NCBI GenBank assembly: GCA_022447625.1
Contig: JAKVAX010000002.1
Coordinates: forward strand, 62,001 to 126,000
From: Flavobacteriales bacterium
GTDB taxonomy: Bacteria; Bacteroidota; Bacteroidia; Flavobacteriales_D; Sanyastnellaceae
Length of the DNA stretch: 64,000 nucleotides
Reading direction: 5' to 3'
Shown here: positions 8,248 through 61,250 of the stretch, in pieces
How the letters are laid out: every line of letters starts with the position of its first letter
Position numbering within the stretch: the stretch's first letter is position 1
Notes under the pieces: generated by a model
Told to the model about the DNA's origin: nothing
The model's input: only the letters and a program-made list of their open reading frames with translations
Databases searched by the model: none
Made by a program: the position numbers and the translations under genes

Positions 8248-8267
8248 CCAGACCAACGATTTCAGCC

Positions 8268-9428
8268 ATGAAAACGACAATCAAAATATTATCAATCTTC
8301 ACTCTCACAGCATTTCTTGCCAGCTGTGGTGGTGAAGCCGTAGATCAAGACCTAAAGGCCTTGACTGAAAAACGCGACTCAATCAAAACAGAGATCGCTA
8401 CCATGACCGAGGAGCTCATGGAACTCGAAACCCAAATCGCAAAAATGGATGACGATTTCACATTGCTCCAGGTAACTGCTATTGAGGCCTCCATTTCGAC
8501 TTTCGATCACTACTTCACCGTTCAAGGAACGATTGAAACCGATATGAACGCACAGGTTTTCCCTGAGTCTCAAGGAATGATCACTTCAATCAAAGTGAGC
8601 GAAGGACAGCAAGTCTCAAAAGGACAAACCATCCTTACACTTGACACGGAGTTGATCCGCAAAAACATCGCAGAAGTCGAAACGCAGTATGAACTTGCCG
8701 TTGAAATTTACGATCGTCAAAAGCGTCTTTGGGAGCAGAACATCGGTTCAGAGGTTCAGTACCTCGAGGCAAAGACCAACAAAGAACGCTTAGAAGGAAC
8801 ACTTGCTACACTCAACAAGCAAGTAAGCATGGGTACTGTTCGCGCACCATTCTCTGGAGTGATTGATCAAATCGGACCAAAGATTGGAGAGATGGCGAGC
8901 CCGGCATTCCCGGTAGCGCGTATCGTAAGTCTTGATAAGATGTACGTAACAGCTGACGTTTCTGAGTACTACGTGAACTCGGTAGAGGAAGGAATGAACA
9001 TCGATGTTATCCTTCCTGGAATTGATACGCTTGACGCGGCGATTGATCGCGTGGGACGTTTTATCAAGCCAGAAAACAGAACCTTCGAAGTTTCTGCAGA
9101 ACTGGAAAACTCACCTTCACTTCGTCCGAACATGTTCTGTGCATTGCGGGTGAACGATGCTCACTATGACAGCACGATGGTAATCCAGTCTTCTATGGTC
9201 CAGCAAGACGTTTCAGGAAAAGACTTCATCTACTTGTTGACACGTGAAGGCAACAAGTATAGCGTGAAGAAGCAGCCAATCACAACGGCTGAATCTTTCG
9301 GAAATGAAGTACGTGTATCGGCAGGGCTTAAGCCTGGAGACCTTATTGTTGACAAAGGCGCGCGCCGCGTGATCGATGGTCAAGAAGTGGAGTTGTTCGT
9401 GGAGAACGCTTCCGTAGCAACTAAGTGA
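8268..9428 (+). CDS. RND efflux periplasmic adaptor (membrane fusion protein) lipoprotein
   Basis: The adaptor joins the inner-membrane RND pump to the TolC channel. The lipobox LASC ends at about residue 20, so it is probably lipid-anchored. A short coiled coil (residues about 27-60, ALTEKRDSIKTEIATMTEEL) precedes the biotinyl-lipoyl half-motif GMITSIKVSEGQQVSKGQ, the alpha-hairpin (AEVETQYELAVEIYDRQ) and the second lipoyl half GTVRAPFSGVIDQI. Beta-barrel and membrane-proximal domains follow. The extra coiled coil before the first lipoyl half is common in Bacteroidota adaptors. Confidence 0.92.
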   Translation: MKTTIKILSIFTLTAFLASCGGEAVDQDLKALTEKRDSIKTEIATMTEELMELETQIAKMDDDFTLLQVTAIEASISTFDHYFTVQGTIETDMNAQVFPESQGMITSIKVSEGQQVSKGQTILTLDTELIRKNIAEVETQYELAVEIYDRQKRLWEQNIGSEVQYLEAKTNKERLEGTLATLNKQVSMGTVRAPFSGVIDQIGPKIGEMASPAFPVARIVSLDKMYVTADVSEYYVNSVEEGMNIDVILPGIDTLDAAIDRVGRFIKPENRTFEVSAELENSPSLRPNMFCALRVNDAHYDSTMVIQSSMVQQDVSGKDFIYLLTREGNKYSVKKQPITTAESFGNEVRVSAGLKPGDLIVDKGARRVIDGQEVELFVENASVATK

Positions 9429-9454
9429 TCTATTCATCCTTTAATCTGTAAATC

Positions 9455-12400
9455 ATGAAAGAAGAGGATATCATTGATCAAGGCGCAGGTAGCAGCCAAT
9501 CAAAAGAGGAAAAGCTCAAAGAGTTTGGCCTAACTACCTTCTCGATCCAAAACCGTACAACGGTCTTTGTGATCACCTTTATCATCTTCGCTGCCGGGTT
9601 GTTCTCGTACATCACGGTACCAAAAGAAAGTTTCCCAGAAGTAGTTATTCCTGAGATCTACGTAGGTACACCTTACCCCGGTAACGGACCTACCGATATC
9701 GAAAAGTTGATTACTCGTCCACTCGAGAAAGAAATCAATACCATCACGGGTATCGACGAAATCGTATCTACTTCTACCCAAGGTTACTCTGCAATCCAGG
9801 TCAAGTTTGACTTTGATGTGACGCCACAAGAAGCCTTGAGAAAAGTAAAAGACAAGGTAGACGTTGCGATGTCGGATCCGGACTTCCCTGACGACCTACC
9901 TGCTGACCCGAACATCTTTGAGATGAACTTCTCTGAGCTTGTTCCTGTAATGAATGTCAACCTTTCTGGAGATTACTCTTTAGATGACCTTAAGGCTTAC
10001 GCCGAAATCTTGGAAGACCGCATTGAAAATGTTCCACAAATCTCAACGGTCGATATCCGCGGGGTGATGGATAAAGAAGTCGAAATTGAAGTCGATTTCT
10101 TGAAGGCGGAAGCCATGAACATCAGCTTCAATGACATCTCCGGAGCGATCCAACAAGAGAACCTGACTATATCAGGGGGTGACGTTTTGGTAGACAACTT
10201 CAAACGCACCCTTCAGGTCAAAGGAGAATTCCAGACGATGCACGACATCGAGCGCGTGATTGTGAAGAGCGAAAACCAAAACGTAGTATTCCTCGGAGAC
10301 ATCGCGAAGGTAGAGTTCGTTGAAGAAGAGAAAGAGAGTTTCGCTCGTGAATACCTTCAACCGGTAGTTTCGCTAGATATCATCAAGCGTGCGGGAGAAA
10401 ACCTCATCGAGGCCAGTGATCAGATCAACGAGATCATTGATGATGCGCGGTTGAACGATCTTCCAGAGAACCTTTCGATCACGATTACCAATGACCAAAG
10501 TGATCAGACACGTACTCAGGTAGACGAGCTACAAAACAGTATCATCTTCGGGGTGATCTTGGTTGTAGGAGTTCTTCTGTTCTTCCTAGGTCTGAGAAAC
10601 GCGCTCTTCGTTGGGGTGGCGATTCCACTTTCGATGTTCATGTCGTTCATGATCTTGAACGTGATGGGAATCACCTTCAACGTAATGGTTCTCTTCTCAT
10701 TGGTGCTCGCACTGGGAATGCTCGTCGACAACGGTATTGTCGTCGTCGAGAACATATATCGACTCATGGACGAAAAGGGCATGAATGCCATCCAAGCTGC
10801 ACGCTACGGTGTGGGTGAGGTAGCATGGCCTATTATCGCATCTACGGCAACAACATTAGCGGCCTTTATTCCTCTCGCCATTTGGCCTGGAATGATGGGT
10901 GAGTTCATGAAGTACCTCCCGATGACGCTCATTATCGTATTGAGCTCATCTCTCTTCGTCGCCTTAGTAATTAACCCGGCATTGACTGCCGTTTTCATGC
11001 GCGTTGGAGAACAACAAGTAAACAAGCGCCGCTCACTTATGGTGGGAGGAATCCTGACTGCGGTTGGTCTACTCTTCGTGTTGGTGAGCTACGGAATGAT
11101 CGATGAAGATGGTGTAGATAAAGGAGTGGCTGTTCGAGTATTTGGTAACATGCTTGGCGTAGCCGGTGCATTGACACTTCTCAACACCTTTGTTCTCACG
11201 CCTGCGGCGGAAGGCTTCCAAAATATAGTGCTTCCACGCCTTGAGAGCGCTTACGAGCGATTCTTGACTTACGCTGTGTCTGGTATCCGTCCTTGGGTAT
11301 TCTTCTTCGGTACTATTGGTATGCTCTTCTTATCATTCATATTGATGGGCGTGGCTACTCCGAAGGTAGAGTTCTTCCCTGCGAATGAGCCTCAGTACTT
11401 GAACATCTTCATTGAGAAGCCTATTGGAACTTCAATTGATGAAACAAACCGCGTAACTGAGTTGATCGAGCAACGCGTGATCAACGTGGTGAACAGCGAG
11501 CAATTCCAGAAACCTGATCCTATCACGGGAGAGGTTCAACCATTCTTGGTGAACTCCGTCATCGGTCAGGTTGGTAACGGAACAAGTGACCCTAACCAAG
11601 GGCCGCAGCTAGGAAACACGCCGCACAAGGCGCGTATTACCGTTTCATTCATCAAGTTCCAGGAACGTCAGGGCTTGAGTACCAATGATGTGTTGAATGC
11701 CATTCGTGAAGACTTGAAGAGCTTCCCTGAAGCAGAGATTGTAGTCGCGAAGAACGAGAACGGACCTCCGCAGGGTCCTCCAATTAACATCGAAATCAAG
11801 GGTGATAACTACGATTCTTTGATGCACTACGCACAAGTAATGAAGCGCTTCATCAACGATCGAAGAATTGCTGGTATTGAAGAGCTCAAGCTTGACGTCA
11901 ACAAGTCGAAGCCAGAAATGCCGGTAACCATTGACCGCGAAAAAGCACGTCGATACGGACTCTCAACTTACCAAGTAGGCGATGCCATTCGTACAGCGCT
12001 CTTCGGTCGTGAAGTGAGTACTTTCAAAGATGGCGAAGATGATTACCCAATCAACATCCGATTCAGCGAAGAGTACCGCAACAACCCAGATGCCCTCTTG
12101 AACCAAAAGATCACCTTCCGTGATCCTGCCAATGGACAGATTAAGCAACTGCCAATTTCGTCTGTAGCAACGATCGGAAAGTCGAACACCTTTAACGCGG
12201 TGAAACGAATCGACTTGGAACGAGTGATCACGATCTATTCGAACGTTCTGGAAGACTACAACGCCAATGAAATCGTGAATTCGATCAAGGGAGAGCTTCA
12301 AACATTCGAAATGCCGGATGGAGTCACGTGGGAGTTCACTGGTCAGCAAGAAGAACAAGCAAAAGAAATGGCCTTCTTGGTTTCTGCCCTTTTGATTGCC

Positions 12401-48489: not shown

Positions 48490-49041
48490 ATGAAAACCCG
48501 AATCAAGATCATCTACGGTTCTGACACCGGTAATACTGAACATGTGCTAACTGATGTTCTTACACCTTTATTAGAAGAGTTTGATTTAGAGGTGAAAACT
48601 GTGGCGGAAATCTCTCCTGAAGACTGGGCAACCCACGACGTCTACATCATTGGGGTGCCAACTTGGTACTTCGGTGACCTTCAAAGTGATTGGGATGATT
48701 ATTTTGAAGAGTTTAAGAAGATTGATTTCTCTGGAAAACATGTGGCTTTCTTTGGGTTGGGAGATCAATTCGGATATGATGAATGGTTCATTGATGGAGT
48801 AGGTATCTTGGCTAAAGCGCTTATCAATAACGGAGGCAAGACATTTGCTCATTGGCCAATTGAAGGCTATGAGTTCACAGAAAGCAAGGCCCTTATTCCT
48901 GGTAAAGAAGACCACTTCTTTGGATTAGCGATAGACGAAGACAACCAATATGAGCAGACGGAAGACCGCTGCACTCAGTGGGTAAACATCTTGAAAAAAG
49001 ACCTTCAATCTATCGTTGCTTCACTGGCGGCTCAAGTCTAA
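48490..49041 (+). CDS. fldA: Flavodoxin (long-chain)
   Basis: An FMN-binding electron carrier. The phosphate loop is YGSDTGNTEH (residues about 9-18). The aromatic FMN-stacking loops are GVPTWYFGDLQSDWDD and GLGDQFGYDEWFIDG. 183 residues with the extra 20-residue loop marks the long-chain class, which replaces ferredoxin under low iron in many bacteria. A -7-like GAACTTTG ends five bases before the ATG. The gene is alone between two REPIN pairs. Confidence 0.93.
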   Translation: MKTRIKIIYGSDTGNTEHVLTDVLTPLLEEFDLEVKTVAEISPEDWATHDVYIIGVPTWYFGDLQSDWDDYFEEFKKIDFSGKHVAFFGLGDQFGYDEWFIDGVGILAKALINNGGKTFAHWPIEGYEFTESKALIPGKEDHFFGLAIDEDNQYEQTEDRCTQWVNILKKDLQSIVASLAAQV

Positions 49042-49061
49042 GTGCTTCTTGATTTCACCTC

Positions 49062-49176
49062 ATAGGAATCATGCGTCCATGTCCTAACGCCTACCATCAT
49101 TGGGTTCGTCCATTTCAGGTTTAGGGGAATCACATCAAAACCCGGGGGATGCCGGATGGATTTCATCCATCCCTAC
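49062..49176. mobile_element. REPIN-like element C (left end decayed)
   Basis: The left end keeps only ATAGGAATCATGCGTCC. The right end is intact: GGATGGAT-TTC-ATCCATCC then CTAC. Its interior matches element B more than A in the GGTTTAGGGGAATCACA segment. Confidence 0.65.
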
Positions 49177-49275
49177 GATACACCTTTCTTCAGGGTTTTT
49201 CCGTTGAGGCGCATGAATCACGAAGCACGGGACAGGTGCACCGCTAAAGGACCGATTTCCCCCAAGGGACCAAAT
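49177..49275. repeat. Conserved spacer between REPINs C and D
   Basis: This 99-bp segment parallels 48172-48271, with shared GTTGAGGCGCAT, GAAGCACGGGACAGGTGC and CCGCTAAAGGACC. Confidence 0.75.
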
Positions 49276-49404
49276 GTAGGGGCGCATGAAATGCGTCCAA
49301 ATCCAGGTTTTACGCCCAAGGAGGTTCGCACCGGTTACGTTGCAGGGTCGAGGGAATCACACCCAAAACCCGGGGGATGCCAGATGGATTTCATCCACCC
49401 CTAC
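49276..49404. mobile_element. REPIN-like element D, overlapping a gene's stop codon
   Basis: The left end is GTAGGGGCGCAT-GAA-ATGCGTCC, identical to element B over 23 bases. The right end is GATGGAT-TTC-ATCCACC then CCTAC at 49401-49404. The TAG stop of the minus-strand outer-membrane protein gene lies in this terminal CTAC. Confidence 0.7.
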
Positions 49405-50681
49405 CCTCTCGATGTGCGCGTCACCTGTTTTGAGCGATCGCGTTCAAAAGACCATTGAATACCGAGCATTCCGAAGGCGTTGGTGTAGCTTCGGCGTACA
49501 CGCGTAGTGATCTCTGTGGTGTTCGATTCACGAGAAGCATAGCCCCCTTCTATTCTTAACCTCCTGTTGCCTTTGTGGCGGCGCATCATCTTTGCGTTGG
49601 CACGTAAGTTTGTGTACTCCAAAGTTGGAAATGGGACTCCTTCTGCCTCTCTAGCTAGACGGTCGTCGTAGTCTCTGCTGGTGTAGCTGACGGATGAATT
49701 GACCTTCCAGTTATCTGTCTTGACATAGAAGCGAATACCTGGTTGCCATTGCACGTAGCTGAAATCTCCGTTACTGATGTCGAATCGGCGGGTGTACTCG
49801 ATGAAGGGTTTTACCTTCACTTGCTTACTCATGGGGAACGCGTAATCTAGCTGTCCAACTATATATCTCCAGCGTCTTGCCGTGTAGGTGATGTTCGGGT
49901 CAAACGGGAAGAAAGGGTCTGGCGCCAGTGGGTCTGGGTCTTCTTGAAGCAACTCGTAATTGATCCAATCGAAGTAGCGACGATCACGGGCGTGTACCTC
50001 TATTCCGATCTTCTGCGTTCGTTTGGCAATCACGCCTGTCTTGATTTCTTGACGAAACTTTGCTCCCCACTCACGCTGGGTCAAACTCACGTCTTGCTTA
50101 TTCAGGTCACAGCCGAAACAGATTTCGTAATTCTTATACGAATAGGTCACTTCCAGCTTTGATGAGTTCCCCCTCGTTTTTTGGCGTTCCACATAAGCGC
50201 CGCCGTCTACTTGGTTGAAAGAGAACGGTGTCAAAAGTTCGCTACCAAGAACGTTCAGTCCAAGTCGGTCTTGTGTTCTCAGTCGCACGTGCGCTCCCTT
50301 GCGCAAGCCGGTTTTTGGCTTGTGGTCATAGCTCAGCTTCGAATAGGCCTCCGTTGCGTTCGCTTGTGTGGTGTTCTGGTAGCGCAATACCTCACCGTGC
50401 GTCTTCCAATTGATGCGGTGGGCATTGAACAACCATTTCATGTTGATCGTTCCTTCCAATTGTAAGAAGGGTTCGCTCACAATGAGCTGAGAACGTTTTA
50501 AGGTGTCAACCACGCTCGAATTGTCACGAATATAGATGTCAGGAGAATTGAAAATGTTGTCACGATATCCAGGCGCAGCGCTGAGTTTGATCGACATAGT
50601 CGACTGAGCACTTATTTGTGATGTAAACGCAATGGCGAGTAGCGTCAACTGCAGGATCCGGTATTCAAATTCCTTTCTCAT
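49401..50681 (-). CDS. Outer-membrane beta-barrel-like protein, last gene of the envelope operon
   Basis: A signal peptide (MRKEFEYRILQLTLLAIAFTSQ...) is followed by a 400-residue region of alternating strands rich in Arg, Tyr and Trp at strand ends (INMKWLFNAHRINWKTHGEV, KLEVTYSYKNYEICFG, RRWRYIVGQLDYAFPMSKQV, VSYTSRDYDDRLAREA). This predicts a barrel of 16 or more strands. No family is recognised. Its start lies 17 bp inside the TPR gene. The stop codon is supplied by a REPIN end, and the last residues (SKQVTRTSRG) are not barrel-like, so an original, longer C-terminus may have been replaced. Confidence 0.7.
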   Translation of the reverse strand: MRKEFEYRILQLTLLAIAFTSQISAQSTMSIKLSAAPGYRDNIFNSPDIYIRDNSSVVDTLKRSQLIVSEPFLQLEGTINMKWLFNAHRINWKTHGEVLRYQNTTQANATEAYSKLSYDHKPKTGLRKGAHVRLRTQDRLGLNVLGSELLTPFSFNQVDGGAYVERQKTRGNSSKLEVTYSYKNYEICFGCDLNKQDVSLTQREWGAKFRQEIKTGVIAKRTQKIGIEVHARDRRYFDWINYELLQEDPDPLAPDPFFPFDPNITYTARRWRYIVGQLDYAFPMSKQVKVKPFIEYTRRFDISNGDFSYVQWQPGIRFYVKTDNWKVNSSVSYTSRDYDDRLAREAEGVPFPTLEYTNLRANAKMMRRHKGNRRLRIEGGYASRESNTTEITTRVRRSYTNAFGMLGIQWSFERDRSKQVTRTSRG

Positions 50682-52926
50682 CTGCAAATTCAGGATATAA
50701 GCTCCTAAGGCGGAGTGCATACTCCGCACTTCGAGGGTCATTGATTTCTGATAGTAGTTGTGTCAAACGATATAGGGTGAATTTGTGTTCTGCATCCACT
50801 TGCAAAGCTCTGGAGAATTCCGATTCCGCGCTAGCGAAATCACCCAAGTCATAAAATGCCTTGCCTTGCCAGTAGCGAATCCAAACGCCATCTTTACCCG
50901 CACTTTCCGCTTTGCGGTAATAATCAATGGCGTCCTGAAACTGATCTGTCTTGTGCATATCACGCGCCAACTCATAGTATGGCTCAGACTCTTCTCTTAG
51001 CTCTACTTCAAATGTTCGAGCTATTAATTCTTGTTCTTTATTCCTCGCCTTCACCGCCAACTCAGCCCATTTCTCAATCGCTTTGAGGTAGTCACGACGA
51101 ATACGAACAGCCTTGTTGAGGTGAATCATCGCCTCGTCAAAATTTCCTTTCTTTTCGTACTGCAGCGCAAGATTAAACCGAAGCTGTGCATCGCTATTAT
51201 CGATGTCTAATGCCTGTCGGTATTGAAGAATTGCCTGATCAAGATCGCCTATCGATGCGTAAATGTTCCCTAGGTTTTTCCAGGCCGACGTGTAGTTCGG
51301 GTCAAGGTCAATCGCACGCTCATAAGCCGCAATCGCCTCTTGGTCTGCTCCACTTTCCGCACGAGCGAAACCCAAGTTGAACCACGCCTTGCTATAGTTT
51401 GGAAAGCGTACCAACATCTCTTCATACACCTTGCGCGCAATTTGCGGCTGGTCTTGATCTAAGTACAACGACCCCATATTGTACCACGCTTTAAGATAAT
51501 CAGGGGCAACGTCAATCAGCGCTCGATACGTCTCAATCGCCTTCTCCACATTCTTCTGATCACTGTAGATCTTACCTAAGTTGTAACGCGCCTTTACAGC
51601 CTTTGGGTTGATCTTAATCGCTTGCTCATAACATCGTACAGCGTCAGCATCATTCCCCGCGCTGCGGTGGGCCAAAGCCATATTATACCATGCCGATTCA
51701 TAAGAAGCACGCACTACTGTAGCTCGTTGGTATGAGGCAATGGCGTCGTCAATCTTGCCTTGTTTCTTCAACAGAATTCCACGATTCAAGTAGGCTTCAG
51801 CGTAGTTGCCATCTGAGAGGTCAATGGCTTTTTCATAGAGGCTGATCGCGGTCTCTAACTCTCCATTTCGGCTCGCAATTTTTGCTCTGTAGAAAAACTG
51901 CTGTGGTGCCAAGGTGTCTTGTCCATACACTTGATCAAAGTACTCTTCAGCGCGCACGATCAAATCATTGTTGATGTAGAAAGATCCCAGCAATTGTGAT
52001 AAGTCTTTGTCTGCAGGATTCAACTGCAAGGCTTTCTCAAAACTCTGCTGTGCATCGTCTGTGCGACCCATGTCTTCCAACACTACGCCTCTGTAATAGT
52101 ATGCCGGAGCATACCCCGGACGCAACGAAATGACTTTGTCTAATTCTTTTAGTCGATCCTCATCTTCGGCAACAGCCAAGGTGCGGTAAATCCGAGGCAA
52201 AATGTATGACGGAGCCAAGTTGATTGCCTCTTCAAAGTATCTGGTAGCTGCTAACGAATCGCCTAAGTTGAATGCTACCATTCCTCGGTAGGTGTTGGCT
52301 TTTGCTTTCTGTTCTCCGGCGGCATATTTGATGGCGTTATTTAACGCTAGCGCGGAAGTGGCCCACTCTTCAATTCGACAATGCATGATCCCTCGATTGA
52401 GCCACGCCTTGGAGTTCGCTGGCGAATGTGTCATCACCAATTCATACACAGAATCTGCTGCTGCATAGTTCTCACGACGAGAGTAAACCAATGCCAAGTT
52501 GATCAACGACGGCACGTATGCACTATCGCTCGCCAAGGCCTGTTCAAAAAGAATTTTCGACTCTACGGTTTGATCTGTGTGTAGGTAAATCAACCCTAAG
52601 TAATTTCGAATCGAGGGCTCTTCTGGGTACTTGTTGACCAGCGAACTGAAGAACTCTTCGGCACGATTGTATTGATTGCGGCGGTAAGCGTCTACCGCGT
52701 TCACAAAGAGTGAATCTGCTTCTAGACCTTCCGTTGCGTCAACGAATTCTTCGCGTTCGAACTGCCAGATATCATTTCGCTCATTGTTAATCACATCGTC
52801 TGTGATGTACACGATCGTCGGCTCCGCGCTTTTGTCGCGTGCCACTTGATCAGCCATAATCACAATCACAATCACAATCGCGAGGAAAATCAGGAAAGGG
52901 GTAGCTGTTGCTTTCTTCTTTCTCAT
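50665..52926 (-). CDS. Membrane-anchored TPR protein of the envelope operon
   Basis: One N-terminal membrane helix (ATPFLIFLAIVIVIVIMAD) anchors about 16 tetratricopeptide repeats spanning residues about 60-740 (for example AWLNRGIMHCRIEEWATSAL and AWYNMGSLYLDQDQPQIARK). Such long TPR scaffolds hold partner proteins in the periplasm. It is translationally coupled to the ATP-grasp gene upstream (ATGA) and overlaps the barrel gene downstream, so it may link inner-membrane and outer-membrane parts of one machine. Two exact copies of the dispersed motif and one weak one are in this gene. Confidence 0.85.
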   Translation of the reverse strand: MRKKKATATPFLIFLAIVIVIVIMADQVARDKSAEPTIVYITDDVINNERNDIWQFEREEFVDATEGLEADSLFVNAVDAYRRNQYNRAEEFFSSLVNKYPEEPSIRNYLGLIYLHTDQTVESKILFEQALASDSAYVPSLINLALVYSRRENYAAADSVYELVMTHSPANSKAWLNRGIMHCRIEEWATSALALNNAIKYAAGEQKAKANTYRGMVAFNLGDSLAATRYFEEAINLAPSYILPRIYRTLAVAEDEDRLKELDKVISLRPGYAPAYYYRGVVLEDMGRTDDAQQSFEKALQLNPADKDLSQLLGSFYINNDLIVRAEEYFDQVYGQDTLAPQQFFYRAKIASRNGELETAISLYEKAIDLSDGNYAEAYLNRGILLKKQGKIDDAIASYQRATVVRASYESAWYNMALAHRSAGNDADAVRCYEQAIKINPKAVKARYNLGKIYSDQKNVEKAIETYRALIDVAPDYLKAWYNMGSLYLDQDQPQIARKVYEEMLVRFPNYSKAWFNLGFARAESGADQEAIAAYERAIDLDPNYTSAWKNLGNIYASIGDLDQAILQYRQALDIDNSDAQLRFNLALQYEKKGNFDEAMIHLNKAVRIRRDYLKAIEKWAELAVKARNKEQELIARTFEVELREESEPYYELARDMHKTDQFQDAIDYYRKAESAGKDGVWIRYWQGKAFYDLGDFASAESEFSRALQVDAEHKFTLYRLTQLLSEINDPRSAEYALRLRSLYPEFADEKGI
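50824..50838 (+). repeat. Dispersed CGCTAGCG motif, exact 15-mer copy 10
   Basis: TTCCGCGCTAGCGAA is antisense in the TPR gene and coded as FASAES inside a TPR helix. Confidence 0.85.
52345..52357 (-). repeat. Dispersed CGCTAGCG motif, exact 13-mer copy 11 (reverse)
   Basis: The minus strand reads TTCCGCGCTAGCG, sense in the TPR gene, coded as SALA. The same gene thus carries the motif in two orientations and two frames. Confidence 0.85.
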
Positions 52927-53786
52927 ATGATCGTCCTCCTTAGCCCATCTTGATTAACGTTTTGAATTTCTAATCCTGGTCGCACATTTATCTCGAGCAC
53001 CATAGGCCCTTTGTGTTGATCAAAGGCGATATCTATTCCTAAATAATTGAGTGGAAATGCAGCATCTACCTTCAGACAAGTGTCGAGCACTTTTGGCCAA
53101 TCTGGAAGCTGCACTCCCGTAATTTGTTGTCCCGAATCTGGGTGAATCTCAGCATAAGATTGCAGGTCGAACACCTTCTTCAAGATGCCCGTTTCGATAT
53201 CTACGCCCACGCCCACCGCTCCTTGGTGGAGGTTCGCCTTACCATCTGAACTTTTGGTTGGAAGCCGAAGCATCGCCATGACGATTTCACCTTCTTTCAC
53301 GATGACGCGAACATCAGCAATCCCTAGGTGACATAGGTTAGTCACCGTTTTGTGGTGAATGATTTTCTCTTCGATCAGCACCTTATCATCCGCTCCGAAG
53401 CTGAATACTCCAAAGATGATGTTCGCGATGTGACGTTCAATGGTATCTTCTGAAATCGGTTTCCCGCCTTTGGTCCAACCGTTTTCTTCATCGTAATCAA
53501 CGATGAGAATTCCACCGCCTCCGGATCCCTTACTGGGTTTAATCACACAACTCTTGCGTGGAGTCGCTGCCCACTTTTCCGTGATGTCTCCTACACTCTC
53601 AATGACCATGAACTGCTCCGCTACCGAAACTTTCTGCTCTTCGAGGATCGCCTTCGTCAATACTTTATCATCTGCTAAATGGAAGTACTTCCTCGGATTC
53701 AATGGGTACACCAGTTTTAGGTTGCGCTCATTGATTCCCAGGGCCACCTGGTCGATCTCCTTACGTTTCTTGAACCATTTCATCAT
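52923..53786 (-). CDS. ATP-grasp ligase (alpha-L-glutamate ligase-like, RimK-related)
   Basis: The 287-residue protein matches the 'sugar-transfer-associated' or alpha-L-glutamate-ligase-like ATP-grasp group. SCVIKPSKGSGGGGILIVD is the ATP-binding glycine loop with its Lys, KVLIEEKIIHH is the hinge, and YLGIDIAFDQHKGPMVLEINVRPGLEIQN has the metal-binding Asp, Glu and Asn. It likely forms amide bonds between a carboxylate and an amine, perhaps adding Glu to an acceptor. The start at 53786 overlaps the stop of the transglutaminase-7TM gene (ATGA). This ligase plus membrane transglutaminase pair recurs in many Gram-negative bacteria. Confidence 0.82.
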   Translation of the reverse strand: MMKWFKKRKEIDQVALGINERNLKLVYPLNPRKYFHLADDKVLTKAILEEQKVSVAEQFMVIESVGDITEKWAATPRKSCVIKPSKGSGGGGILIVDYDEENGWTKGGKPISEDTIERHIANIIFGVFSFGADDKVLIEEKIIHHKTVTNLCHLGIADVRVIVKEGEIVMAMLRLPTKSSDGKANLHQGAVGVGVDIETGILKKVFDLQSYAEIHPDSGQQITGVQLPDWPKVLDTCLKVDAAFPLNYLGIDIAFDQHKGPMVLEINVRPGLEIQNVNQDGLRRTII

Positions 53787-55351
53787 CGCACTAACCATTT
53801 AAATCGACGGTACTCCGTTACTCGAAGTCCAATCCATCTTCCCAAGAGAAGCATGGCTGCGATAATTGTTAAGAAGAGCTCAGGGAAGGCGAGGAAAATT
53901 GCCTCCATGGTTGTTGAGTTCATAGCTACATAAGCGCCCAGCACAACCACCAGGGTTTGGATCGTAATCTTAATGGCGTCTTCGTATCCTTCCTCCATCA
54001 CAGTGCGCGCGAAGCGTTCAGCAGTAATAGTGATCACTACCACTGGGAAGAGGGTGATATAAGCCAACTCGGTGTAGTTCATTTTGATCCCGATGATTGA
54101 TAGCAAGATAAACGCGATCACCACAGTCACGAGCATGATGACCATCTTCGGGGTGTAGAGCATTCCGAGCCGCTCAAGCGGATAGTGCATCAAGCTTACA
54201 ATGACAATCACCAATACGAAAGCCAGCATTCCCCAGAGTAATCCGGTGTATCCAACTGCCACGGCAATCAGCGCTGGAAGGAAGACTCCAAAGGTTTTTA
54301 AGCCGATTACATTTCGGGCGATAGCCACTACCATCGCGCCTAGCGGCATGAGCAGAATAACCTTCAGTAATGACAATGGAATGCCTGCCTTTTCAAAGGC
54401 CGTCCACATTAAGTAGGTGTTGAAGGCGCTACTTTTCAGCTCGCTTGCCAACTTCGGGTTACTCACCAGTTTTGGCTGAATGATAAATAGGTGGTCGAAC
54501 TCAATGTTTGCTGTACGGCTGAATAGAAAATTGTCTTCTTTGTAGAGCTCCAGGTAGTTGGCTGGAATGGATGCAAAGTGCCCGTTCAAACAGTCAAATG
54601 GAACCCAAAAACCTCCCATGTAAACTTCTGCCCATTGGTGCGTGGTTTTCTTACTCCCTTGATCCATGATCAAGCCGCCGACCAATCGTGCTGGAATGCC
54701 TTTGTTTCGACAGAGTGCAACGAACAAACGCGACTTTCCATTACACGAGGCCTCTCCTAATTTCAAGGTAGTCAACGCATCGGTCAACCCCTTGAACGGA
54801 CGTGACTCCATGCCATTGATCTCAGTGAAGATCGACGTCAGGATGGGGAGGAATCGTTCCTCTGAACCCGTGAGTTCATCCGCCTTATCCAGGATCTGCG
54901 GGTGGTTGCTTTGGATCGCTGCCGTGCTGTTAAGGTATTGGTATACCGACGGCGGCAGGTCGCGTGGCACCACCATTTCAGGATCGATGTCGAACTGAAT
55001 CGCTTTTCCTCGTGCTTCGAAAGAGTAGCGAATGAGCTTCTTTCCGGTCACGGCTTGTGCAGTCCAGGAGACTCTTCGGCCCGTGGCGTCGTTCAACTGA
55101 GTGACCCCAAAGACACCCGTTTCTTGAATTTCATTTGTGATTTCCTGGCGCTCGTTAGAGATTGGCAACCAGGTGCTTACTTGTATCTCATCCCCGAAAC
55201 CTTCGATATCAAAAATTACGCTTACCTCGTAGCTGGTTGTCGGAAGGATATTATTGAATGAATATCCATACACGAAAACCTTTAACAAGATTAGAATAAG
55301 GGGGATGATCAGAAATAAGCCAGCGATGACGTGATAACTTCTGATCTTCAA
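53783..55351 (-). CDS. Transglutaminase-like protein fused to seven membrane helices
   Basis: TM1 (residues about 8-28) is followed by a periplasmic N-terminal domain, a transglutaminase core and a C-terminal block of about seven membrane helices from residue 340 on. The family is annotated as 'inactive transglutaminase fused to 7TM', but here the triad appears intact: Cys203 in GEASCNGKSRL, His238 in THQWAEVY, and Asp253 in WVPFDCLNG. It could therefore be a peptidase or amide-forming enzyme. Co-translation with the ATP-grasp ligase suggests a peptide made inside and processed or sensed at the membrane. Confidence 0.85.
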   Translation of the reverse strand: MKIRSYHVIAGLFLIIPLILILLKVFVYGYSFNNILPTTSYEVSVIFDIEGFGDEIQVSTWLPISNERQEITNEIQETGVFGVTQLNDATGRRVSWTAQAVTGKKLIRYSFEARGKAIQFDIDPEMVVPRDLPPSVYQYLNSTAAIQSNHPQILDKADELTGSEERFLPILTSIFTEINGMESRPFKGLTDALTTLKLGEASCNGKSRLFVALCRNKGIPARLVGGLIMDQGSKKTTHQWAEVYMGGFWVPFDCLNGHFASIPANYLELYKEDNFLFSRTANIEFDHLFIIQPKLVSNPKLASELKSSAFNTYLMWTAFEKAGIPLSLLKVILLMPLGAMVVAIARNVIGLKTFGVFLPALIAVAVGYTGLLWGMLAFVLVIVIVSLMHYPLERLGMLYTPKMVIMLVTVVIAFILLSIIGIKMNYTELAYITLFPVVVITITAERFARTVMEEGYEDAIKITIQTLVVVLGAYVAMNSTTMEAIFLAFPELFLTIIAAMLLLGRWIGLRVTEYRRFKWLVR

Positions 55352-55371
55352 ATAGCTTGCGGTTTAAATTT

Positions 55372-56121
55372 CTAAAGCAGGTTGATGCGTTTCCCGAGTG
55401 CATCTTTGTACGAACCACCAATCGGTATCTCTTTCTCGGTTCCTTCCAGTATCAAACCATTAGAAGTAATCGCTCGAATTCGATCCATGTTCGTTATGTA
55501 TGAACGGTGAACTCTTAAAAAATGTTTTCCTGGCAATTTTCTTTCGATGTCTTTCATGGTGCTGTGGATGGTGTATTTCTCCTCCGGCGTGTGAATGACT
55601 ACGTAGTCTTTCAATGCCTCTACATATAGCACCTCTTTGACATCTAACTTTACCAGAGCTGACTGGTGTTTCACGAACAAATACTCGGCGTCATCTTTGT
55701 GTTCCGCCATACTCTTCAAGAGCTCTGCTTCAATCTTAAACTCCTTCTCTTTTTTGTGCTTATGAATTGCCATTTCAATCGACGTATGAATGTCGATCTC
55801 TTTGAAAGGCTTAAGAATATAACCATGAGGCTCTGTCACTTTAGCTTTTGCCAAGGTGGAATCGTCCGCATATGCTGTTAGAAAAATGATCGGTATATCG
55901 ATCGATTTTTTGATCTGCTCCGCTGCCTCAATTCCGGTCATATCACCTTTCAACATGATGTCCATTAAGGCTAGATCCGGCTTTAACCTCCCCGCTAACT
56001 CCACTGCTTTTTCGCCTGTATCGGTAGATCCTATAACGTTGTAGCCCAATTTTTTAAGGCTTCTTTCGATGTCTTTTCTGACGATACTTTCGTCTTCAGT
56101 GACTAGAATGTTAACTGACAT
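55372..56121 (-). CDS. Response regulator with REC and LytTR domains
   Basis: Residues 1-120 form a receiver domain, with acidic residues near the N-terminus, phosphoacceptor Asp54 (LALMDIMLKG) and the conserved Lys in YILKPFKE. Residues about 148-249 are a LytTR DNA-binding domain (VLYVEALKDYVVIHTPEEK; FLRVHRSYITNMDRI). It is 15 bp downstream of the 7-PAS kinase and is its obvious partner. It probably controls this operon and possibly others. Confidence 0.93.
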   Translation of the reverse strand: MSVNILVTEDESIVRKDIERSLKKLGYNVIGSTDTGEKAVELAGRLKPDLALMDIMLKGDMTGIEAAEQIKKSIDIPIIFLTAYADDSTLAKAKVTEPHGYILKPFKEIDIHTSIEMAIHKHKKEKEFKIEAELLKSMAEHKDDAEYLFVKHQSALVKLDVKEVLYVEALKDYVVIHTPEEKYTIHSTMKDIERKLPGKHFLRVHRSYITNMDRIRAITSNGLILEGTEKEIPIGGSYKDALGKRINLL

Positions 56122-56136
56122 GTGAGAGGGTGGTGT

Positions 56137-59100
56137 TTATCGCTTTTCAAATGTAATCAAAAAGGTAGTTCCTGCTTCAGAATCGATCTTGATCTCTGCA
56201 TCGAGTTGTTCTACCAATGCGTAAACCAAATAGATACCCAATGAATCTGAATCTTCGTATTTAAAGTCTTTTGGGAGTCCAATACCATCATCCGCCACCA
56301 ACATCGCGATCTTCCCTTCTTTTTCGGTGATATTCAGGGTCAGGGTGCCTTTATCCCGATCAGGGAAGGCATATTTCAAGGCGTTACTTACAAGCTCGTT
56401 GATGATCAATCCGCAAGGAATGGCTTGATCAAGGTCTAAAAATATCTTGTCAAATTTCGTATCCAACTCCACTTGAACATCGCTTCGGCTATACGACAGA
56501 ATCAAATTCCGCGCTAGCGAAGAGATATAATCAGTGAATTCAATCGAACTAAAATCAGAAGTCTGGTAGAGTGTCTCATGAATGTAACTCATGGTTTTGA
56601 TGCGGCTCTGGCTTTCTTCAAGAAGCTCTAGTGTGCGTTCATCATCAACGAATGAACTCTGCAGATTCAAGATGGAACTGATCACCTGAAGGTTATTCTT
56701 CACACGATGATGTACTTCTTGAAGCAGCACCTCTTTTTCTTTGAGGGAGTTTCGAATCTTGAGGTCAATCTCCTTTCGATCTGTGATGTCATAAGCCAGA
56801 CATGACACCTCTGCCAGTTCATTCTTGATGCGCACTGGGTTGATGAAAACCTGTAACCACAACTCCCCGTCTTTCTCATTCAATACTGGAAGCTCGAACT
56901 GCCGTGCTTTTCCTTCTACCGCCGCCTCAAAGTTCTTCAACTGACCTTGGTATGAATCAGGATTGGTAAAGCCTTTCAAGGCCTCCAAGAAGTTATCTCC
57001 CATGGCATAGCTAGCGCCGAAATCGTGCTCGGTCCATCGGATGAAGTTCTGGTTGAACGAAGTTAATTCTCCATTGACATCCATCGTCCACATCATCATA
57101 TTCTCTGTCGAATTGAAGATGGATTCTAGCTTCGCTCCTTCTTTCAGCGCCACCTCTTCATGGCGGCGCAAATCAGTAATATCTCGATATATCGCACGAA
57201 TGGATTCCGCTTGACCTTCGTTATATCTAATTGAGCTATCGCCGAACACTTTGATGATGTTCCCACTTCGTGAAATGAAATCTAGCTCGAGTGGTTGTCC
57301 GCCGAATGCGGCGACGAGATCATTGCATTTGGAAATCGCATCGTTCGCTACAATCTCTTTCAACTGCATTTGATCGAGCTCTTCACGCGTGCTTTCCATC
57401 GCCTCCAAGAAGGAATTGTTCGCGTAAATAAATCGTCCATCGGCATCAATAGAGAAAATCAAATCAGACGCGTTCTCAAAGAGATCTCGGTAGCGCTCTT
57501 CACTTTCTCGAAGTTCGCGTTCTCTCTTTTTCAATTCAGTGATATCTCGCGCCACTCCCATGAATCCGACTGTCTCGTCTTCATCATTTTTCATGACACT
57601 GGCAGAAAGCAGACTCGTGAATGTTTTGCCAGATTTCGAGACCATTTGAATCTCTCCTGAGAAAGCTTCCTCGCTTCTCAACTCTTTCTGTATGCGTTTA
57701 AAATCGGTCTTGTTCCGATAGAGATTTTCAGAACTCTCACCCATGATTTCTTCTGAGCGATAACCAAACTGTTGCAGTGCCGCTTGATTGAATTCTATGA
57801 TGTGGCTGTTGCGGTCTACGGCAATGATCATATCAATCGAACTCTCGATAATATTTCGAGAGAAATCTTCTGCTTCACGCAATTTCTGCTGTGTTCGCTT
57901 ATGCTCTTCAATCTCCCGTTTCAAAACCACATTGATTTCCTCTGCCAACTGTGCACGCAGGGTTTCTTGCATCAACTTCATACGAAGTGTCACGTTGTTC
58001 AAGGTCACTTGAATCGATGGCTTGTAATCGTAAACAGAAAGGGTGGCTTTCAGTCCTAAGACCAATTCTTCATCACCTCTTCTAATCTTGTACTCGCGCA
58101 ATTCAATGTCTTCTCCTTCTCGCACTGATTGGAGATCTCGTTCAATTTGCAACGCATCCTCATGGTCAAAGAAGTTGGTAAATTTCTCTCCGTAGAGATC
58201 ATCTTCATCTTCTCCGTTGAAGAGTTTGATCCCCGAGCTATTGACATACTTGATTTCACCGTCGGTCAAAATCATGATGCCATTCGGTGAATTCTCTACT
58301 ACGGATTTAAAACGCTCAGTACTTTGCTCAAGTGCTTGTTCTGTGCGCTTTCTAGCCGTGATATCGTAGAAGAGGAATACACTAAAGTCTGTATTTTGGA
58401 ACTCGATTTTACTACCGGTCGACTCCAAGATGAGATGACGTCCATCTCGTGTACTGGTATAGATTTCCGTTCGATTCAGGCTGCGAATGCTGAGGGTTTG
58501 TTCCAGTCTTCTCCATTCACTTTCTGAAATAAAATCGAGTAGATCACGACCTAAAATTTCTTCTTGCTTTTTGTAGCCGAAAAGCTCCACAAATTGCTTG
58601 TTGCAGTCACGCACTTTTCGGTCAACTACAAACACAACCCCTTCAATCGCCACCTCAGAAAGAAGTTTAAAGCGTTCTTCACTTTCCTTCAGTGCTTCTT
58701 CGTAGAACACACGTTCACTGACATCTCTAACCACCAGCTGGATGTTCTCTGGATTGATTTCATCCAGGCGAGACAGGTTCAGCTCTGCATAGAACTGGCT
58801 GTCATCACTTCTTTTCGAAAGGACGCTTGAACGCTGGGGTTCTCCCATTCGCATGCGATCAATTTTGATGTCGAGGTATTCGCGTTCGCTAGGCGATAGC
58901 ACAAATAATCCATCTTTTTGATCGAAGACATTTAGTCCAACAAGATCATGCTTTTCCAGTCCGTAAAGCTCACAGGCACGCTTATTTGCCCTTACTACCT
59001 TCTTTCCATCAAGGAGCATTACTGCGTCCGCGCTAGCGTAAAATAAGGCCTCAAATTGATCCGAAAATTGTTTTTGCTGGGTGATGTCCACTAAAGTCCC

Positions 59101-59721
59101 TACAATGCTTTGTTTGCCGTTATAATCGATGACATAGGCATTTTCAACGCAATAAGCGATCGACTCATCTTTGCGTTGATAGCGAACTTCTTTGTTTCTA
59201 ACACTTCCTTCTTTGATCAGATCCCGAAGGAATTTCGCTCGGTCTTTTTCGTGAACGTACAGCTCATTTCCATTGAGCTTCGCCAACTCAGCCTTTGAGT
59301 ATCCCATCAATTGGCAGAAGGCATCGTTGTACGCTAGAATTTCTCCATCCAAGGTCGTCTCGTAGATACCGGCGACGTTATTTTCGAATACCTTAACAGC
59401 ATGACTCCCCGGGTAGATCATTTGAGGATGATGGAGGCTAATCAAAGCATGCGATTGTTCTCCACAAAACGGAGCAATCGTGACTTGACCAAAGGTAGAT
59501 GACTCTTCAACCACCCACTTCCCACTACTTAATTCTTCAGTAGATCGGGTGAATAAATCTTTAAGTTCTTCAGGAAGTGCGCTGTCTTTAGTATCAACAC
59601 CCAGGTTTTGGAGGAACCATTTTGCGCTGTCATTCACGCACACCATGGTGTGGTCAGCGGTGCTGACCACTAACTGTGCATCTTGATTACGTTCTACCCA
59701 CTGAAGGAGTGCTTTATTCAC
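56137..59721 (-). CDS. Cytosolic seven-PAS histidine kinase (HisKA_2 type)
   Basis: 1194 residues without membrane helices. After a degenerate N-terminal PAS-like module, seven PAS/PAC units can be counted (near residues 105, 215, 340, 465, 600, 720 and 850), joined by short coiled coils. The dimerisation/phosphoacceptor site is EVHHRVKNNLQVISSILNLQ around His1004, of the HisKA_2 class. The ATPase domain has GLIINELVSNALKYAFP, VADDGIGLPKD and SLGIYLVYAL. Multiple PAS domains suggest several internal signals (redox, small ligands). Two dispersed-motif copies lie in it. Confidence 0.9.
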   Translation of the reverse strand: MNKALLQWVERNQDAQLVVSTADHTMVCVNDSAKWFLQNLGVDTKDSALPEELKDLFTRSTEELSSGKWVVEESSTFGQVTIAPFCGEQSHALISLHHPQMIYPGSHAVKVFENNVAGIYETTLDGEILAYNDAFCQLMGYSKAELAKLNGNELYVHEKDRAKFLRDLIKEGSVRNKEVRYQRKDESIAYCVENAYVIDYNGKQSIVGTLVDITQQKQFSDQFEALFYASADAVMLLDGKKVVRANKRACELYGLEKHDLVGLNVFDQKDGLFVLSPSEREYLDIKIDRMRMGEPQRSSVLSKRSDDSQFYAELNLSRLDEINPENIQLVVRDVSERVFYEEALKESEERFKLLSEVAIEGVVFVVDRKVRDCNKQFVELFGYKKQEEILGRDLLDFISESEWRRLEQTLSIRSLNRTEIYTSTRDGRHLILESTGSKIEFQNTDFSVFLFYDITARKRTEQALEQSTERFKSVVENSPNGIMILTDGEIKYVNSSGIKLFNGEDEDDLYGEKFTNFFDHEDALQIERDLQSVREGEDIELREYKIRRGDEELVLGLKATLSVYDYKPSIQVTLNNVTLRMKLMQETLRAQLAEEINVVLKREIEEHKRTQQKLREAEDFSRNIIESSIDMIIAVDRNSHIIEFNQAALQQFGYRSEEIMGESSENLYRNKTDFKRIQKELRSEEAFSGEIQMVSKSGKTFTSLLSASVMKNDEDETVGFMGVARDITELKKRERELRESEERYRDLFENASDLIFSIDADGRFIYANNSFLEAMESTREELDQMQLKEIVANDAISKCNDLVAAFGGQPLELDFISRSGNIIKVFGDSSIRYNEGQAESIRAIYRDITDLRRHEEVALKEGAKLESIFNSTENMMMWTMDVNGELTSFNQNFIRWTEHDFGASYAMGDNFLEALKGFTNPDSYQGQLKNFEAAVEGKARQFELPVLNEKDGELWLQVFINPVRIKNELAEVSCLAYDITDRKEIDLKIRNSLKEKEVLLQEVHHRVKNNLQVISSILNLQSSFVDDERTLELLEESQSRIKTMSYIHETLYQTSDFSSIEFTDYISSLARNLILSYSRSDVQVELDTKFDKIFLDLDQAIPCGLIINELVSNALKYAFPDRDKGTLTLNITEKEGKIAMLVADDGIGLPKDFKYEDSDSLGIYLVYALVEQLDAEIKIDSEAGTTFLITFEKR
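56507..56521 (+). repeat. Dispersed CGCTAGCG motif, exact 15-mer copy 12
   Basis: TTCCGCGCTAGCGAA is antisense in the kinase gene. It is read here in the third frame, as SLARN in a conserved region between the H-box and ATPase domain. Confidence 0.85.
59029..59040 (+). repeat. Dispersed CGCTAGCG motif, near copy 13
   Basis: TCCGCGCTAGCG lacks only the first T of the 13-mer. It is antisense in the kinase gene and coded as YASADA in the second PAS unit. Confidence 0.75.
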
Positions 59722-59726
59722 GTTAC

Positions 59727-61250
59727 CTACTCTTCGAAATCTGCAGGTAATTTAGCACCATTGATCTTTACTTTCTCATCCATCTCGTACTTGATGGTAA
59801 CAATTAGGATTCCATCTTCCTCGTAGTAGCGCCAATCGCCATCTTTAGCTCCACCCTCATACTTACCGAAGATCTTCACTTGACCATTGCGATACCACCA
59901 TCGATGTTTCCCGATTGGAACACCACTTAGAAATTCACCTTGAAAGTATTTTTTGCCGTTATCATAAGTGTAGAGCCATTCTCCGTTCTTCTCCCCATCG
60001 ATGTATTCGCCTTCTTCCTTGTGGTCATTGACATGATAAATCCACGGTCCATTTTTGTATCCATCGATGTACATTCCCTTGTGAATGATCTCTCCGTTGC
60101 GATCGTACTCGACGAAATCGCCGTCTTCTTTTCCTTTTCGATAGACCTCTTCACGTTGTGTTTCTCCATCTTCGAAGATCCAAGTCCAAGATCCATGAGG
60201 CTTCCCTTGACGGTAATTTCGATTCTGTTCTTTCTTTCCACTAGGGAAATAGAATTTCCACTTGCCTTCACGAAGTCCGTCTACATACTCCCCTTCCGCT
60301 CGGATTTCTCCCGTTGGATAGAATAGTTTCCACGGACCCTGGTATCTACCTTCCGCATCCACAATTCCTTCTCCCAATTTGACATTGCCATCGTACACGT
60401 AACTAGTGATAATCTCACCTTCTTTGTCATACTCACGGAACACCCCTTGCTTGGAATCATCGCGGTATGAACCCACAATTTTCTAATGTCCATCTGGGTA
60501 GTATTCTTTTCGGATGTCGAGCATCACTGCTTCGTCAGCATCTGTGACGAGCTCTCCACCTTAATATTTTTCGATGCGATCGAGACGGCCGTTCTTCTTG
60601 TAGATCTTGAATACTCCATTTTTGACGCCGTTGGTCCAGTATCCTTCCTCTTTCTTTTTCCCGTTCGGGAAGAAGTCAACCCAGTATCCTGTTTTCTTGC
60701 CTTCTCGATTGAATCGATTCAACTTTTCGATACTGCGTAGGAAGCCATTCTCATAGTTGAGGTAGGTGATGATTCGGCCGTCTTTGGCGAATTCTTGTCC
60801 TTTCCCTTCTTCTTTGTTGTCTACGAATGCCAAGGTGCGGTATAGCTCACCGCTTTCGTAGAAGTATTTCGCCTCTCCTTGTTTTTGATTTTGATCCCAT
60901 GGCGTTATTGAAATCATGTTGCCTTCTTCAGAGAACTCGATTTCTTCGCCTTGCTTTAGATCTTCGCTGTAGTTGATGATGCGTTCGAGTTCACCATTCT
61001 CGCGATAAAAACTCCAAGAGCCTTCAAGGTTTCCGTTTTTACGATCGCCTTCTGTCTTTAGCAATCCGGTCTCGAAATATGTCTTCCAAGTGCCGGTAGG
61101 TAATCCGTCTTTCATGACCCCCTCGCTTGACAACACTCCGTTGGCATAAAAGAATTGAGTGTAGCCAGCATCTGTAGTATCAATCTGGGCTGAGACTGTC
61201 ACACAAAAAAAGAGGATGCTCAGGGAGCTTATCAGAGTTTTCAACTTCAT
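59727..61250 (-). pseudogene. MORN-repeat exported protein gene split by two in-frame stops
   Basis: A signal peptide (MKLKTLISSLSILFFCVTVSAQ) starts a series of about 20 MORN-like repeats (GxWxxYxxxGxxxxEGxYxxG). The frame is interrupted by TAA at 60563-60561 and TAG at 60485-60483. Between them GGELVTDADEAVMLDIRKEY and after them KIVGSYRDDSKQGVFREYDK continue the repeats in the same frame. Without the stops it would be one protein of about 506 residues (60561-61250 and 59727-60476 are the two long parts). It is first in the operon with the 7-PAS kinase. Whether the stops are real, suppressed or errors cannot be told here. Confidence 0.7.

Follow-up and report, generated by a model that had tools for sequence, protein, structure and literature searches.

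The window analysed here is a stretch of 64,000 nucleotides from contig JAKVAX010000002.1 of a Flavobacteriales bacterium (family Sanyastnellaceae). Between its positions 49401 and 61250 it carries eight reading frames, all on the minus strand. Read 5' to 3' on that strand, they potentially encode a MORN-repeat protein (two frames that make up one gene), a PAS kinase, a LytTR regulator, a transglutaminase-like domain fused to a seven-transmembrane (7TM) domain, an ATP-grasp ligase, a TPR protein and an outer-membrane barrel (Table 1). An earlier interpretation made from the letters alone, called here the sequence-only reading, had taken these genes for one seven-gene envelope operon. As judged from their distribution among related genomes, they form two units, namely a four-gene core, which comprises the transglutaminase-7TM, ATP-grasp, TPR and barrel genes, and a MORN-kinase-regulator locus.

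Table 1. Genes of the core and of the adjoining MORN-kinase-regulator locus (positions in the window).
Feature	Coordinates	Strand	Basis
Outer-membrane beta-barrel, 426 aa, signal peptide-like N-terminus	49401..50681	-	AlphaFold2 model, outer-membrane matches, recurrence beside the pair
TPR protein, 753 aa, one N-terminal hydrophobic helix followed by repeats, probably periplasmic	50665..52926	-	Pfam TPR families
ATP-grasp ligase, RloC/RimK-like, 291 aa	52923..53798	-	PF14397; TIGR02291 below cut-off
Transglutaminase-like domain (Cys203-His238-Asp253 intact) fused to a 7TM domain, 522 aa, RloB-like	53783..55351	-	PF14402, PF01841
LytTR response regulator (Response_reg and LytTR), core neighbour in this genus, member of the family-wide locus	55372..56121	-	Pfam
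Seven-PAS histidine kinase (seven PAS S-box stretches, HisKA_2, HATPase_c), family-wide locus	56137..59721	-	Pfam, NCBIfam
MORN-repeat gene (MORN_2), two in-frame stops, family-wide locus	59727..61250	-	Pfam, comparison with congeners

The genes are co-directional and their gaps do not exceed 20 bp, as previously stated; the three gaps measure 5 bp (MORN/kinase), 15 bp (kinase/regulator) and 20 bp (regulator/transglutaminase-7TM). Three overlapping junctions were found instead of the four reported, with lengths of 16 bp (transglutaminase-7TM/ligase), 4 bp (ligase/TPR) and 17 bp (TPR/barrel, with the barrel starting at the Met codon at 50681). The last overlap would be 77 bp if the upstream ATG at 50741, which gave the longer frame of the sequence-only reading, were the barrel start. 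The domain calls agreed with Pfam and NCBIfam, where MORN_2, PAS/HisKA_2/HATPase_c, Response_reg/LytTR, Transglut_core/7TM_transglut, ATPgrasp_ST and TPR were matched.

The 7TM family was searched for with PF14402 in genome sets of the family, order, class and phylum, all four of which include the window's own genome. Matches were obtained in 7 of 114 family genomes, 13 of 399 order genomes (the family's 7 included), 8 of 395 class genomes and 7 of 395 phylum genomes, the last two numbers becoming 6 and 6 over the cut-off. Weak matches in G126, G814 and G1040 (19-21.4 bits, below the cut-off) were dropped, and 22 distinct Bacteroidota genomes remained, so that the system is patchy. The loci of all 22 genomes and of two named metagenome-assembled genomes (MAGs) were read, 24 in total. 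In every one of them, the 7TM gene has the ATP-grasp gene as its direct neighbour. A barrel gene of one family is present in all 22 genomes and belongs to the same cluster in 20. As for the other two, the cluster of G664 is cut by contig ends (L042), and its barrel lies on a second contig, where it starts at base 99 (L120), while G134 has an intact but unlinked barrel gene near recG (L119), a place at which its relative G232 has the whole cluster. A long TPR gene is found in 10 of the 22 clusters and a short one-helix peptide (46-66 aa) in 9. The gene order is TPR, barrel, transglutaminase-7TM and ligase in family f110, and transglutaminase-7TM, ligase, TPR (or peptide) and barrel elsewhere. 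The sequence-only reading had conceded that its grouping would be accidental if relatives kept the ligase-transglutaminase pair but never the other genes beside it; these counts show the opposite for the barrel and the TPR gene. In the tree of transglutaminase-7TM proteins, L039 (G458, a member of this family) groups with L041 (G734, from another family) at 100/100; both have damaged triads and long branches, and horizontal transfer is a likely explanation. A barrel was also sought at the Spirochaete locus L007, where a TPR frame and then a strand-rich frame lie upstream of the transglutaminase-7TM gene (8108-9925). Possibly these are the two halves of one TPR-barrel gene disrupted by a frameshift; neither frame matches the barrel profile and the case is unproven. 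Locus L006 ends inside its TPR gene.

A profile made from all cluster barrels would have been circular, and therefore a separate profile was restricted to six barrels of this family. It was run against 233 open reading frames (ORFs) of at least 90 aa from the loci of other families, from which L039 had been excluded as a member of this family. The 13 cluster barrels of this set took the first 13 places, with E-values of 6e-17 or better, before a match at 8e-4. On 16 whole genomes the same profile gave matches in 14, and in 12 of these it found the cluster gene only; the other two were G664, with its match at a contig end, and G134, with its match at the unlinked gene. G458 and G875 were unmatched, and their cluster barrels were found by the broader profile. 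The recurrence in other families and the ability of the family-only profile to pick out the neighbouring genes demonstrate that the grouping of the four core genes is beyond chance.

Although the barrel has no match in Pfam or NCBIfam, its AlphaFold2 model has 16 long strands (predicted local distance difference test, pLDDT, 84.1; predicted TM-score, pTM, 0.78; alignment of 19 sequences), and the best 50 matches listed in the structure comparison are all outer-membrane proteins, in agreement with the initial call. The alignment comprised 19 of the 20 cluster barrels; that of L041 was excluded for its C-terminal OmpA extension, a domain which itself fits an outer-membrane location. When matches within 1 Z are counted as tied, the closest structures include CdiB (Z 20.0, root-mean-square deviation (rmsd) 4.0 over 283 residues) and a chitoporin (Z 19.4). 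The secretion barrels PelB (Z 17.8, rmsd 10.3 over 282) and BcsC (Z 17.4, rmsd 4.5 over 278) were also matched, and AlgE was among the Foldseek matches. The BcsC barrel is likewise 16-stranded. With the more polar face of each model strand assigned to the lumen, lumen positions 89, 135, 139, 183, 234, 299, 336 and 384 carry a basic residue (Lys or Arg) in 14 or more of the 19 barrels, and position 301, the one acidic position, is always Asp. The net lumen charge ranges from -14 to +20. On this model, the basic positions would fit the passage of a polyanion.

The broader barrel profile matched 15 of the 114 family genomes, comprising seven with the 7TM protein, G003 with a full-length match, and seven with weak matches. 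In genus g5 (L058-L061), the weak barrel relatives adjoin a cytidine deaminase gene, and a nucleoside-transporter gene is present in three of the four loci read (the family names of these neighbours were checked on one example of each). These relatives are perhaps nucleoside channels.

The short one-helix peptides can take the place of the TPR gene in the cluster. When a profile of nine peptides was compared with the N-termini of 421 ORFs, a set that holds 12 TPR proteins, the four best non-self matches were all TPR proteins (E 9e-5, 4e-4, 2e-3 and 0.16), the second and third being near-identical congeners. From their sequences, the peptides and the N-terminus of the TPR protein look like one element.

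The transglutaminase-7TM protein matches PF14402 with 148.4 bits and PF01841 with 64.9 bits. Among 24 homologues (25 rows were aligned, of which L050 was omitted as a fragment, the rest of it being L051 in genome G844), the triad Cys203-His238-Asp253 is intact in 20, and all 20 have the motif SCNGKSRL around the Cys. It is wholly or partly lost in L019, L022, L039 and L041, all of which keep the barrel and the ligase. Of the solved structures, 3isr lies nearest to the model (pLDDT 86.0), with Z 25.0 and an rmsd of 2.9 over 253 residues; it is that of a putative cysteine protease from Cytophaga hutchinsonii. The model also matches TgpA (Z 9.0) and LapG (Z 8.9). A known fold for the 7TM part was looked for and not obtained, all Foldseek matches listed being to the transglutaminase domain and the match to subunit D of Na+-NQR (Z 8.2 over 123 residues) being too weak for a helical domain.

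The ligase matches PF14397 (ATPgrasp_ST) with 212.8 bits, over the cut-off of 31.4, and the Pfam RimK model PF08443 with 40.6 bits, over the cut-off of 21; with the RimK family model TIGR00768 it reaches 58.4 bits, below the cut-off of 143.4. Alignment of 24 ligases revealed 43 invariant residues, including Lys87, Glu143, Asp256, Glu269 and Asn271, some of which presumably correspond to the nucleotide and metal ligands of RimK. The solved structures matched by its sequence are of the RimK type only, and these matches are weak (E 7e-4 to 2.5e-3, over short stretches). In G311 (L019), a degenerate transglutaminase region, the 7TM domain and the ATP-grasp domain form one frame of 756 aa (7TM at 269-460 and ATP-grasp at 483-751 according to Pfam). 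On a plasmid of Halobacterium sp. DL1 (L108, 3845-5599), the 7TM and ATP-grasp domains form one frame of 584 aa that lacks a transglutaminase domain, and the barrel and peptide profiles gave no match within 4 kb on either side. This frame is absent from the gene table of the plasmid, and two transposase genes lie nearby. Since the 7TM protein and the ligase are fused in two lineages, the ligase probably works at the membrane. The presence of 7TM and ligase in an archaeon, which has no outer membrane, suggests that these two parts are the engine, and that the TPR protein and the barrel are its outer-membrane extension.

The core resembles in part the rlo operon of Pseudomonas aeruginosa. In that species, polyglutamate is a substrate in vitro of the secreted protease RloA, and triple rloA mutants fail when the osmolarity is low, a hypo-osmotic defect that deletion of rloB or rloC rescues; whether the substrate of RloA is free polyglutamate or a polyglutamated protein was left open by the authors (PMC12239564). 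The rescue reads as if a periplasmic product needed removal. As in rlo operons, an RloB-type transglutaminase-7TM gene stands beside an RloC-type ATP-grasp gene (PF14402 and PF14397 over their cut-offs, with the 16-bp overlap), and the hydropathy of the window protein fits the topology predicted for RloB (PMC12239564). Unlike the rlo type, which is inactive, the window protein has an intact triad. The RloB-type protein of Legionella adelaidensis, encoded in a cluster of RloA-type, RloB and RloC genes, has K, T and N at the triad columns in an alignment of about 26% identity. The window cluster also differs in its additional TPR protein or peptide and outer-membrane barrel. Moreover, the RloA-type aspartic protease family PF05618 had no match in the whole window genome (99.82% complete), and 2 of 14 control genomes matched. 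The idea that an active transglutaminase domain makes up for the loss of RloA was tried and given up: PF05618 matches occur in 10 of the 22 core genomes (signal peptides unchecked; none inside the cluster), in 3 of 4 with damaged triads vs 7 of 18 with intact ones, which are too few.

A second resemblance is to the synthase-dependent exopolysaccharide secretion systems (AlgK-AlgE, PgaA, BcsC, PelB), in which an inner-membrane unit, a TPR protein and a barrel are encoded together (PMC9734138, PMC9384988). For alginate, the TPR protein AlgK and the barrel AlgE export the polymer and AlgL clears what is left in the periplasm (PMC9734138), and PgaA binds its polymer through its TPR part (PMC9384988). 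The window, in contrast, has an ATP-grasp ligase in place of a glycosyltransferase, and its TPR protein carries a membrane helix at the N-terminus and is a protein distinct from the barrel. No glycosyltransferase was found among the Pfam and NCBIfam matches listed for the eight frames (the best 25 for the TPR protein in both scans, and for the regulator and the kinase in NCBIfam). The ligase shares the RimK-like ATP-grasp superfamily, and its weak nearest solved structures, with RimK. RimK of Pseudomonas fluorescens produces poly-alpha-glutamate in vitro together with RimB, and RimK adds glutamates to the ribosomal protein RpsF; unlike the window core, RimK/RimB is described as a cytosolic ribosome modification system without a membrane partner (PMC11957791). 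In Shewanella vesiculosa, disruption of an inactive transglutaminase-7TM gene leads to more membrane vesicles (PMC12096838), a phenotype that agrees with an envelope role and names no product. The sequence comparisons thus place the core neither among rlo operons, because its triad is intact, RloA is missing and its model scores are below the cut-offs, nor among exopolysaccharide systems, because it has no glycosyltransferase; yet it appears to work like parts of both. For the function proposed below, the Gram-positive analogue would be poly-gamma-glutamate synthesis by PgsBCA/CapBCA, which uses a Mur-ligase-like synthetase and is not known to have an ATP-grasp ligase or outer-membrane parts. 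No description of the four-part cluster was found in the open-licence literature, which was available mostly as titles and the beginnings of abstracts; the 2009 amidoligase survey of Iyer and colleagues may note it.

The MORN-kinase-regulator genes show a different distribution. A regulator orthologue (59-100% identity) is present in 79 of the 114 genomes of the family, of which 6 have the 7TM protein and 73 do not; the matches listed extend to much weaker ones than these 79, and partial matches in G019, G475 and G497 (58-77% identity) were not counted. At 14 regulator loci read outside the genus, the kinase and the regulator are always together and the MORN gene accompanies them at 13. An rpiB/M28-peptidase pair lies upstream at 13 of these loci, as one fused frame in five, and Pfam identifies the same pair upstream in the window. 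No core gene was found in the stretch read at any of the 14 loci (L095 ends inside the regulator). In G034 and G492 the core and the kinase-regulator genes lie on different contigs, as do the core and the regulator in G016, where the regulator's contig ends at that point. Within the genus, the seven genes are packed together in all three genomes seen (G000, G001 and G002), the core following the regulator by 20-33 bp. In G003 (L057, 1355-8498) the MORN-kinase-regulator genes are followed directly by a full-length barrel gene and then by a PfkB-type gene like that of the window, and PF14402 has no match in this genome. Since the barrel gene alone sits between the regulator and the PfkB-type gene, the core may once have been present in G003 and have since lost three genes.

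Gene distribution therefore points to an older locus, separate from the core, which the core adjoins only in this genus. Found throughout the family and mostly without the 7TM protein, the kinase and regulator are not the dedicated cytosolic signalling pair that had been proposed, and the seven genes are not one operon in the sense of a single unit. The core may nevertheless now be transcribed together with the MORN-kinase-regulator genes, given a gap of only 20 bp. Other lineages have other neighbours. Genes for extracytoplasmic function (ECF) sigma factors, FecR-type proteins and TonB-receptor-like proteins lie beside the core in 7 of the 22 clusters, divergently from it in 5 of 6 genomes of family f9 and co-directionally in 2 of 3 of family f35. 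Sigma and FecR genes were confirmed by Pfam at L020, L021, L043, L044, L045 and L046, and FecR and a receptor plug at L042, whose sigma frame is assigned by resemblance only. These loci (L042-L046 in f9, L020 and L021 in f35) belong to families from different classes and have opposite orientations. Because the neighbours of the core differ between lineages, its regulation probably varies by lineage while the core stays.

Taken together, these features could be explained by a single trans-envelope apparatus, formed by the transglutaminase-7TM, ATP-grasp, TPR and barrel proteins, that makes and exports an acidic polyamino acid, a reading to which we assign a probability of about 40%. From the gene content, recurrence, fusions, triad residues and predicted folds described above, we infer the product, its direction and processing, the cellular places of the parts and their co-transcription. 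The RimK-like ATP-grasp protein would join amino acids where the 7TM protein faces the cytosol, most likely into an acidic polyamino acid such as poly-glutamate, and the 7TM protein would take the product through the inner membrane. The periplasmic transglutaminase-fold domain, with its intact triad, might then trim, cut or attach it, the inner-membrane-anchored TPR protein would guide it over the periplasm and the 16-strand barrel would release it. Such a layout would be the polyamino-acid counterpart of the alginate, poly-N-acetylglucosamine (PNAG) and cellulose secretion systems, and the Pseudomonas rlo operon could be a version of the synthase-exporter that ends in the periplasm. The trans-envelope layout of the sequence-only reading, with an amide-linked product, is retained here as the best reading, in view of the barrel beside the pair; its dedicated sensor is not.

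Several results weigh against this proposal. The transglutaminase-7TM protein scores 132.4 bits with NF052267 (the RloB model of NCBIfam), below the cut-off of 900, and the ligase scores 242.3 bits with the RloC-type model TIGR02291, below the cut-off of 314.2. The top structural matches of the barrel are two-partner secretion proteins, chitoporins and general porins, with PelB and BcsC lower; a full-length barrel relative occurs without the 7TM protein in G003, and weak relatives lie near nucleoside genes. The net lumen charge is negative in two of the 19 barrels (those of the congener L016 and of L022), and the basic lumen positions were counted without a control set of other barrels. Neither a TPR gene nor a peptide was seen in 3 of the 22 clusters (G255, G311 and G755), and the peptide profile is strong for only 3 of the 12 TPR N-termini, eight of which do not stand out.

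The transglutaminase fold is able to transfer as well as to cut. The ligase could hence make an amino-acid or peptide tag, which the 7TM protein would present and the active transglutaminase domain would couple to an acceptor in the barrel or close to it, so that envelope proteins or peptidoglycan are covalently tagged. The triad and SCNGKSRL motif shared by 20 of 24 homologues, and the glutamates that RimK places on RpsF (PMC11957791), speak for tagging, which we regard as unlikely: the four homologues with damaged triads keep the barrel and the ligase, so that coupling is not essential to the unit, and 3isr, whose fold comes nearest, is labelled a putative cysteine protease. This same fold, together with the TgpA and LapG matches, would agree with regulated envelope proteolysis, in which a LapG/TgpA-like domain, adjusted by the ligase from the inside of the cell, cuts a protein that is periplasmic or linked to the barrel. 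Proteolysis is, however, improbable as the core function, because the Halobacterium fusion joins 7TM and ligase without a transglutaminase domain and the same four homologues lack a full triad.

Uptake, with a solute admitted by the barrel, imported by the 7TM protein and trapped by conjugation through the ligase, is about as improbable as proteolysis. It could draw on the nucleoside-related genes beside the weak barrel relatives of g5, on the uptake porins and chitoporins among the structural matches of the barrel, and on the ECF sigma, FecR and TonB-receptor genes beside 7 of 22 clusters; the pairing of TPR and barrel, on the other hand, is typical of export (PMC9734138, PMC9384988), and a TPR protein anchored in the inner membrane would not be expected for import. 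A single seven-gene unit with its own sensor, the full form of the sequence-only reading, would account for the tight packing in G000, G001 and G002. It is very unlikely in view of the 79 family genomes with the regulator, only 6 of which have the 7TM protein, of the kinase-regulator loci without a core (14 of 14), and of G003, where MORN, kinase, regulator and barrel genes stand together in a genome without a PF14402 match.

Export of an acidic polyamino acid would bear on the Pseudomonas system, where the ATP-grasp/transglutaminase-7TM pair plays an important part in osmotic stress, antibiotic tolerance and cell shape. The recurrence of the pair with a TPR scaffold and a barrel of its own, and its fusion in a bacterium and in an archaeon, would point to a ligase-on-a-channel core with the cell surface as its destination, and the question of the RloB/RloC product would become testable outside the cell and in a non-pathogenic bacterium. 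It is conceivable, though we consider it rather doubtful, that the core is an undescribed Gram-negative secretion system that takes a non-ribosomal polyamino acid of its own making across both membranes and the periplasm, with an ATP-grasp ligase on a 7TM channel, an active papain-like processing domain, a TPR or one-helix peptide connector and a dedicated 16-strand barrel. Such a system, if real, would explain the rlo phenotype of Pseudomonas, where the polymer would stay in the periplasm and have to be removed by RloA.

The MORN gene of the window was recognized as such by its MORN_2 domain, but it is not a single open frame. It consists of two parts in one frame, of 229 aa (60561-61250) and 249 aa (59727-60476), with two stop codons between them. 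The gene is uninterrupted in both congeners, with 507 aa in L015 and 516 aa in L016 (G001). Both parts are about 98% identical to L015, from which the window gene differs by 80 synonymous, 9 nonsynonymous and 2 stop codon changes. The excess of synonymous over nonsynonymous differences suggests that the gene was constrained until recently; an error in the draft assembly could also be the source of the stops. In the intergenic DNA of the window, seemingly similar repeated pieces were noticed beside the barrel gene, at 49041-49420, and near a flavodoxin-like gene, at about 47.96-48.41 kb.

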